Positions 18,574 to 41,770 of a stretch of DNA of 43,793 nt are shown here, one piece after another. How positions within the stretch are numbered: the stretch's first letter is position 1; every line of letters begins with the position of its first letter. A program made the position numbers and the translations under genes. The notes under the pieces are model-generated. The model saw only the letters and a program-made list of their open reading frames with translations. It was not told the origin of the DNA and did no database searches. The DNA is from a virus. The DNA lies in the IMG/VR virus record IMGVR_UViG_3300047491_000264, positions 1-43,793 of that record, one strand, 5' to 3'.

Positions 18574-19097
18574 TCTTTCCTCAACATTTTGGTAGTTCCC
18601 TCGATGCCCCATTTCTCCAAGGCTTCAAAGAGACTGATTTTGTATTCATTGGAAGTAACGAATGGGATTACCTTTATACCAGAGTCTTCCATCCTATTCA
18701 CATCAAGGTACTTCTCTTCTGCCGAAGGATTGGTGAGGTATTCGTCACACTCAAACTTACGGCAGTAATCAATGATGCGGTCAGTCCCTGTTTCAATGGT
18801 CGCCTCATCAAACACAATCTTGCTCGTGTCAATCCCAAGCAACCGAGCGAAGCCAATAATGAGAGGGACTGTAATTTCCTCCAATCTATGTCCGTTCATA
18901 CACATCTTGTCGGCAATCATCGACATACCGCCCTTAACTGGAATGGTGTACCACTTATCCTTCCACTTGAAGCGATTCGTCCACCCGTTCTTCTCAAACT
19001 GCACATAACGCATAAGAACGAACTTATCGGCTTCTTGCATCTTTTTGAAGAAGTGGAGCCACGGAATGGCGTTGCATTGGTGTGCGGCTAGCTTCAT
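18561..19097 (-). CDS. WbqC-like family protein
   Basis: The protein has 178 residues from MKLAAHQCNAIPWLHFFKKM; this ATG has AGGTGG five bases upstream. The opening (HQ..IPWL.FF.K...AD.FV) followed by RYVQFEKNGWTNRF and WYTIPVKGG is the WbqC signature, a family found in O-antigen and modified-sugar clusters. Its exact chemistry is poorly defined; some members are thought to act on amino-sugar nucleotides. Four-base overlap with the deacetylase gene upstream shows translational coupling. Confidence 0.75.
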   Translation of the reverse strand: MKLAAHQCNAIPWLHFFKKMQEADKFVLMRYVQFEKNGWTNRFKWKDKWYTIPVKGGMSMIADKMCMNGHRLEEITVPLIIGFARLLGIDTSKIVFDEATIETGTDRIIDYCRKFECDEYLTNPSAEEKYLDVNRMEDSGIKVIPFVTSNEYKISLFEALEKWGIEGTTKMLRKEWKR

Positions 19098-25074: not shown

Positions 25075-25123
25075 TAAGTTGCTCCTTTGTTCGTCATCGT
25101 GTTTAAGCCCACGAAGAAGGCTC

Positions 25124-25189
25124 GGTCACAATTCACAGTTTAACGCCATGAGAGGCGCACAGTTTAACGAGGTGAGGCTCGTCGTGACC
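25124..25189 (-). ncRNA. 66-nt three-way-junction RNA-like element in the scaffold leader
   Basis: Minus-strand reading: an outer stem GGTCAC/GTGACC encloses two hairpins. The first is ACGAG-CCTCAC-CTCGT and the second CGCC-TCTCAT-GGCG. Each is followed by the same single-stranded TTAAACTGTG. The whole fits between the stop of the 25199-25576 gene and the scaffold start 49 bases downstream. Nested perfect stems plus a repeated linker are unlikely by chance in 66 bases. Candidate roles are a regulatory RNA for scaffold/capsid expression or a protein-binding site. No known riboswitch class is recognised. Confidence 0.55.
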
Positions 25190-25198
25190 AAAAATTAT

Positions 25199-41681: not shown

Positions 41682-41770
41682 GGGCATGAGGGGGATATTG
41701 GTTAAGCCTCAGCAGACTGTAAATCTGTATCGTGCTAGACACGGTGGTGGTTCGATTCCATCCATGCCCA
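41682..41770 (+). tRNA. tRNA-Tyr (anticodon GTA), CCA not encoded
   Basis: Acceptor stem GGGCATG (41682) pairs with CATGCCC (41763-41769) plus discriminator A. The D arm is GGGGATATTGGTTAAGCCTC. The anticodon stem-loop GCAGA-CTGTAAA-TCTGT gives GTA. A long variable arm (class II) and a TTCGATT T-loop follow. The AGCAGACTGTAAATCTG stretch is typical of bacterial tRNA-Tyr. The 3' CCA is absent and would be added by the host enzyme. Confidence 0.93.

Follow-up and report, generated by a model that had tools for sequence, protein, structure and literature searches.

A tandem pseudoknot RNA leader as a candidate translational operator upstream of phage scaffold protein genes

The window, by which we mean the whole 43.8-kb stretch of DNA analyzed here, comes from a virus record of a tailed phage and carries the head genes on its minus strand, in the order terminase, portal, two small genes, scaffold, and major capsid protein. 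The major capsid protein belongs to PHROG 1328, major head protein (E value of 9e-65), and to the Pfam family SU10_MCP (E value of 2e-62). Between the stop codon of a 125-aa gene (25199) and the start of the scaffold gene (25074) there is a 124-nt gap, 25198 to 25075 on the minus strand, which we call the leader (Table 1). Elsewhere, the window has a tRNA-Tyr gene with anticodon GTA (41682 to 41770, plus strand).

Table 1. Positions in the window of the leader elements and of the two genes downstream (S1 and S2, first and second helix of a pseudoknot; SD, Shine-Dalgarno sequence)
Feature	Position	Strand	Remarks
Outer closing stem, 5' strand GGUCAC	25184..25189	-	pairs with 25129-25124
Pseudoknot 1	25158..25183	-	module finder and covariation
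Pseudoknot 2	25134..25157	-	S1 CGCC/GGCG; S2 C-U-CA / UG-U-G; loop 3 UUAAAC
Outer closing stem, 3' strand GUGACC	25124..25129	-	directly adjoins pseudoknot 3
Pseudoknot 3	25095..25123	-	beyond the 66-nt element first described; S2 pairing kept in relatives
SD AAGGAG of scaffold gene	25082..25087	-	7 nt past pseudoknot 3
Scaffold protein gene, 326 aa	24094..25074	-	precedes major capsid gene; homologues L001-L008; AlphaFold2 model
Major capsid protein gene, 307 aa	23158..24081	-	starts 12 nt past scaffold gene

A sequence-only reading of this DNA had described a 66-nt structured element in the leader, in which a 6-bp closing stem encloses two hairpins with 6-nt loops, each followed by the identical linker UUAAACUGUG. 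We found all of these parts on the minus strand, the sense strand of the genes, where 25189 to 25124 reads GGUCAC GACGAGCCUCACCUCG UUAAACUGUG CGCCUCUCAUGGCG UUAAACUGUG AAUU GUGACC. The tandem imperfect repeat that had been noticed is present as well, its copies being spaced by 24 nt and sharing 84% identity over 19 nt. The minus strand folds at -21.8 kcal/mol (z score of -3.2) and beats 200 of 200 dinucleotide shuffles, while the plus strand is weaker (z score of -1.9), with 11 of 200 shuffles equally good. The stem and hairpins of the proposed closed three-way junction hold, but a plain junction was rejected because the loop-linker pairing covaries. That loops pair with linkers was first hinted at by a subthreshold match to a plant virus pseudoknot. 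The linker is composed of loop 3 plus the 3' strand of S2, and the 6-nt hairpin loop pairs with the linker end. In pseudoknot 1, S1 is GACGAG/CUCGUU (core CGAG/CUCG), S2 is C-U-CA / UG-U-G with a U.U mismatch, and loop 3 is (UU)AAAC. The outer 6-bp stem surrounds pseudoknots 1 and 2, and its pairing may extend to UUUGGUCAC at 25192. The 66-nt extent is real, but the unit is longer and includes a third pseudoknot, with S1 GAGCC/GGCUU, S2 C-U-UCGUG / CACGA-U-G, and loop 3 AAA. The SD is unpaired in the canonical form. On both strands of the window, these three are the only strict modules scoring at least 17.

Relatives were collected through the capsid protein (8 viral contigs), and more were added through capsid and scaffold alignments. 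The scaffold leaders of related contigs share the window arrangement, which bears out the claim of a structured element in the scaffold-capsid leader: it is conserved ahead of the scaffold genes. A module consists of an S1 helix of 3 to 8 bp, whose loop C-Y-(2 to 5 nt) is the 5' strand of S2; the 3' strand of S1 is followed by a short A-rich loop 3, mostly UUAAA, UAAAA, or UAAAC, and then by (2 to 5 nt)-Y-G, the 3' strand of S2. Beside the terminal C-G there is a conserved mismatch (U.U in 33, C.C in 28, C.A in 4, and G-C in 2 of 67 modules). The S2 register CAN/GUG, which is obvious in the window alone, was discarded, as it pairs only 83% of S2 cells, compared with 100% for C-Y-CA/UG-Y-G. The 24 leaders of the window phage group contain 50 strict modules, whereas 30 rounds of dinucleotide shuffling gave a mean of 0.5 and a maximum of 3, and the reverse complements of the same leaders gave none. 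In 2.4 Mb of unrelated viral DNA, searched on both strands, the background was 0.016 modules per leader length (130 nt), and no tandem pair scoring at least 17 was found.

All 112 of 112 pair cells are standard in 16 canonical modules, where two-sided changes number 24 (6.8 in shuffles) and the covariation score is 0.61 (0.16 in shuffles); module rows were picked by a finder requiring pairing, so that the shuffles and three further tests are the fairer evidence. A second module set shows similar covariation in S1, with S2 invariant. For the first of the three tests, S2 strands were crossed between leaders. The longer S2 helices (for example, CUUCGUG/CACGAUG, CUUCAGA/UCUGAUG, CUUGAGA/UCUCAUG, CUCGCC/GGCGUG, and CUUGCG/CGCAUG) are 100% Watson-Crick within leaders but 35% when crossed, and S2 of pseudoknot 3 is fully paired in relatives with unrelated sequences. 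Likewise, the outer stem is formed in relatives by unrelated complementary sequences, such as GGCUAC/GUAGCC, UUUUGCCC/GGGCAAAA, GCAACC/GGUUGC, and GCAUAGC/GCUAUGC, among others, and when strands of different leaders are combined, only 0.4% of the combinations pair as well as the median true stem. The third test used a pattern with S1 mostly unspecified, CTCCCAN5TWAAATGCGAG, which fixes one S1 base; it matched 98 viral contigs, many of them near-duplicates, and all have S1 of at least 3 bp, for which about 4% is our estimate of the chance expectation. The covariance check suggested along with the element was thus positive, compensatory changes being present. The RNA structure is under strong selection, and it is nearly certain that the leader is a cis-acting RNA with three H-type pseudoknots, two of them within a closing stem and the third adjoining the ribosome-binding site.

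Packaging sites sometimes take the form of repeats close to head genes, and a DNA-level element acting in packaging, recombination, or as a transcription operator was considered. We regard it as most improbable: the modules always lie in sense orientation beside the scaffold SD, natural U.G closing pairs (UGUC/GACG) turn into A.C on the opposite strand, and the geometry, a pseudoknot whose loop 3 is rich in A, is a signature of RNA. Of the three roles guessed for the element from sequence, a packaging-linked RNA and a DNA operator gained no support.

The third guess, a translation control site, is the best supported, for the spacing between the last pseudoknot and the adjacent SD hardly varies. 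In 31 of 34 leaders, this pseudoknot has its end between -10 and -29 relative to the start codon, and the median is about -17. In all but one of the 98 pattern-matched contigs, the module lies just before a scaffold-like open reading frame (ORF); the sole exception, L316, is probably due to chance. The leader therefore likely controls initiation of scaffold translation. An mRNA processing or stability element, in which the pseudoknots would stop exonucleases, or mark a cleavage site, and so protect the scaffold-capsid mRNA, would fit the compact stacked pseudoknots between head genes and the need for coat and scaffold mRNAs to last. We consider it improbable, as it leaves unexplained both the near-constant distance from the last module to the SD and the link with a scaffold segment described below, and the surroundings of the leader showed neither a terminator-like signal nor any other signal for processing. 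Compact H-type pseudoknots whose loop 3 is A-rich are also used by known small riboswitches, and the units here are repeated, which might suggest a riboswitch that senses a ligand in the manner of a tandem H-type pseudoknot aptamer. The chance of this is very small, given that the S2 sequence varies freely with no conserved pocket past C-Y..Y-G and the A's, that the downstream gene is always a scaffold gene and never a metabolic one, and that no Rfam riboswitch matches.

The module also occurs, in one to three copies, ahead of the scaffold genes in Firmicutes phages whose capsid proteins are unrelated to those of the window group; a common ancestry of the two groups of capsid proteins was not detected (hhalign probability of 0.4%). 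Examples, some of them dairy phages studied in depth, are Lactococcus phages TP901-1, ul36, and Bacchus, Streptococcus thermophilus phages 9871 and CHPC926, Brochothrix phages NF5 and BtpYZU03, and Lactobacillus phages JNU_P11 and LfeSau, with a variant in Lj928. Among the modules listed for the complete TP901-1 genome, the UCCCA/UGCG form is found only before sfp, at 18727 to 18749, and the other finder matches there lack this form. Three modules in tandem occur in two loci (L238 and L294) and two in a Vagococcus silagei prophage. In this prophage (L201/L187), what follows the modules is a 71-aa scaffold-like remnant with the major tail protein gene immediately downstream, and the capsid gene is apparently missing. 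Exact matches to the pattern were found in about 2% of 298 Lactobacillales genomes, two of them without S1 complementarity and probably fortuitous, and a phylum-wide pattern search added nothing beyond Vagococcus. In distant capsid relatives, Pelagibacter phage HTVC106P and Methylophilales phage Venkman, the gap before the scaffold gene is only 50 to 55 nt. No capsid relatives were found in bacterial genomes, and a DNA similarity search of the region against phages gave no match.

Several leaders show further features. About 40 to 80 nt upstream of the module, TP901-1 (L206) and six other loci (L204, L207, L208, L210, L239, and L264) share a second conserved element, GUCC-GUUUCCGA..GUUGU-GGAC-(G)UUAAAUAAAACACGAG, which looks like a pseudoknot with a longer loop and GUU/AAC as S2. 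The leader of L008 (2973 upstream) is arranged differently, with GGUCGCUGACCGACG and GGUCGCUGAUCGACC repeats and one clear strict module only. Five loci (L239, L258, L267, L305, and L321) have the same leader in front of a 55-aa ORF, and a GC-rich hairpin sequence comes after this ORF. Two contigs of this type, 2651869820 and 2667527935, also carry a full scaffold gene with its own leader, and the 55-aa ORF loci may represent a duplicated or interrupted scaffold gene. Pairs of TTAAACTGTG across viral contigs proved unrelated, almost all being coding repeats with a 33-nt period in other genes; the TTAAACTGTG repeats are the antisense view of AQFNA-like coding repeats in many phage contigs (most of L010-L128).

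The scaffold proteins of the window group and the Firmicutes group belong to different families. Profile comparison gave one weak match (probability of 35%, E value of 4e-4), starting from a short basic segment, QKR[IL]xx[LE][TQ]xEKxxLE, to which the similarity is confined. In the window scaffold, QKRL-DEM-T-R-EK at residues 98 to 109 opens a helix predicted by AlphaFold2 at residues 97 to 126 (pLDDT of about 93), and residues 50 to 92 ahead of it are a disordered acidic stretch in the model. The motif QKR[IL]xx[LE][TQ]xEK is present in 33 of 46 module-bearing and in 0 of 17 module-free scaffolds, a contrast that is not an independent test, as the expression was written after inspection of the module-bearing scaffolds; 4% of background ORFs have it. 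Among the 13 module-bearing scaffolds without the motif, some are near matches and some have clearly diverged. For a fairer test, we used 30 loci chosen by protein family alone (DUF4355, Lactobacillales). A pseudoknot before the SD was found in 4 of 4 motif-bearing loci (L351, L353, L358, and L362), two of them canonical and two being close relatives with a variant scored by eye, compared with 1 of 26 others (L361); the one-sided p value is about 0.0002, or 0.001 with close relatives merged. The variant, AGUU CCCCGA AACU UUAAAA CGUG with S2 CCCCGA/CGUG, was missed by the finder, whose own match in L351 is spurious. Common descent of leader and scaffold is a confounder that could yield such co-occurrence without binding.

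Leader types differ within one host order (Lactobacillales) while tracking the scaffold segment, and the same type is common to phages with unrelated capsid proteins; both observations favor a phage-encoded ligand. They also bear on a translation enhancer, whose pseudoknots would bind the 30S platform or bring in a host factor, with no phage repressor, for strong late-infection translation of the scaffold and capsid genes. Such an enhancer would agree with the tight adjacency of the module to an SD left unpaired in the canonical form and with the bulk need for both proteins, and the upstream pseudoknot domain of tobamoviruses, whose architecture is the same, has been linked to translation and replication of the virus (PMC4683447). 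However, several pseudoknot sequence types are found within one host order and the type follows the scaffold segment, which is not expected if all of them shared one ribosomal or host ligand, and in some relatives the SD is buried in a pseudoknot. On balance, we think an enhancer rather unlikely.

The reading that we favor, with about an even chance, is that the pseudoknot array serves the scaffold-capsid mRNA as a translational operator, with the scaffold protein itself as the probable ligand. As an operator, it would work as follows: a protein, probably free scaffold through the conserved QKR[IL]..T.EK helix start, binds and stabilizes the pseudoknots, and these keep the 30S subunit off the adjacent SD; when scaffold is consumed by procapsid assembly, the operator would open and synthesis would resume. 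Repression is the direction that we infer, and activation or mRNA protection would give the same sequence footprint. The scaffold protein is a candidate ligand, which we put forward more weakly than translational control.

Scaffold leaders without the canonical module often have another H-type pseudoknot with an A-rich loop 3 (10 of 26, against 0.9 in shuffles). In three of them (L335, L212, and L216), the S2 strand is the GAG of the SD itself, and in L347 it is the GGU of GAGGU at the SD site. These four and L348 and L350, all from DUF4355 or related phages, have differing H-type pseudoknots at the same site. A broader proposal, which we advance tentatively and with somewhat less than even confidence, is that tailed phages have a widespread, hitherto undescribed family of modular pseudoknot operators, which makes translation of scaffold, and with it of coat protein, depend on capsid assembly. 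As lock and key, the RNA type and the QKR[IL]..T.EK segment would coevolve and be inherited or exchanged across phages with unrelated capsids, and other scaffold lineages would use other pseudoknot types, some of which bury the SD.

Phages need scaffold and coat protein in the right ratio. In phage P22, free scaffold protein exerts posttranscriptional feedback, for which no defined RNA operator is known to us. For scaffold feedback, both a specific, conserved RNA and a protein segment are now available as candidates. As the module is present in laboratory phages such as TP901-1, feedback from capsid assembly is directly testable by compensatory mutations. It would also add one more pseudoknot family to phage translational control, where very few are listed.

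The statement that the element belongs to no known RNA class agrees with our searches. Rfam 15 gave 0 matches at gathering score in the whole window, and 14 related loci compared at E values up to 1 gave nothing relevant. No description of a scaffold-leader pseudoknot was found in the open-licence literature, and reports elsewhere are possible. The upstream pseudoknot domain of tobamo- and furovirus 3' untranslated regions (UTRs) (RF01106, RF01104, and RF01072) likewise has consecutive small H-type pseudoknots, and one of these families shares the string CGUUAAACUGU with the leader. The matches are below threshold, at 11 to 21 bits (Rfam E values of 0.6 to 10) against gathering cutoffs of 34 to 39 bits; the window reached 14.4 bits against 38 and L167 21.1 against 34. 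The domain lies in 3' UTRs of plant RNA viruses, and we ascribe the resemblance to chance or convergence. The nearest tandem pseudoknot motif in bacteria is STAXI (RF01728), in which a pseudoknot is repeated in two or three copies (PMC2864571). STAXI differs in its occurrence in Enterobacteriales near DNA manipulation genes and in its frequent UUCG loops (PMC2864571), and cmscan found no match of it to the window leader even at an E value of 10. Its context of SSB, topoisomerase, antirestriction, and integrase genes was not seen, scaffold genes being found in all contexts examined.

Two operators are closer in what they do. The Escherichia coli rpsO (S15) operator is a pseudoknot at the ribosome-binding site bound by its own product (PMC3014915), but it is a single pseudoknot in a cellular ribosomal protein gene, and we claim no sequence relation. 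Nearest in proposed function, by analogy, is the gene 32 leader of phages T4, T2, and RB69, whose H-type pseudoknot lies 5' to the ribosome-binding site and is the autogenous translational operator of gp32 (PMC3014915), as control by the gene's own product is proposed here. Both have H-type pseudoknots near the ribosome-binding site, three in the window with the last 7 nt before the SD. The gene 32 leader, in contrast, has one pseudoknot of other sequence in an A+U-rich leader, before the gene for a single-stranded-DNA-binding protein; the modules described here, one to three per leader, share a conserved Y.Y mismatch and invariably stand ahead of a scaffold gene, which in the window precedes an SU10-type capsid gene.
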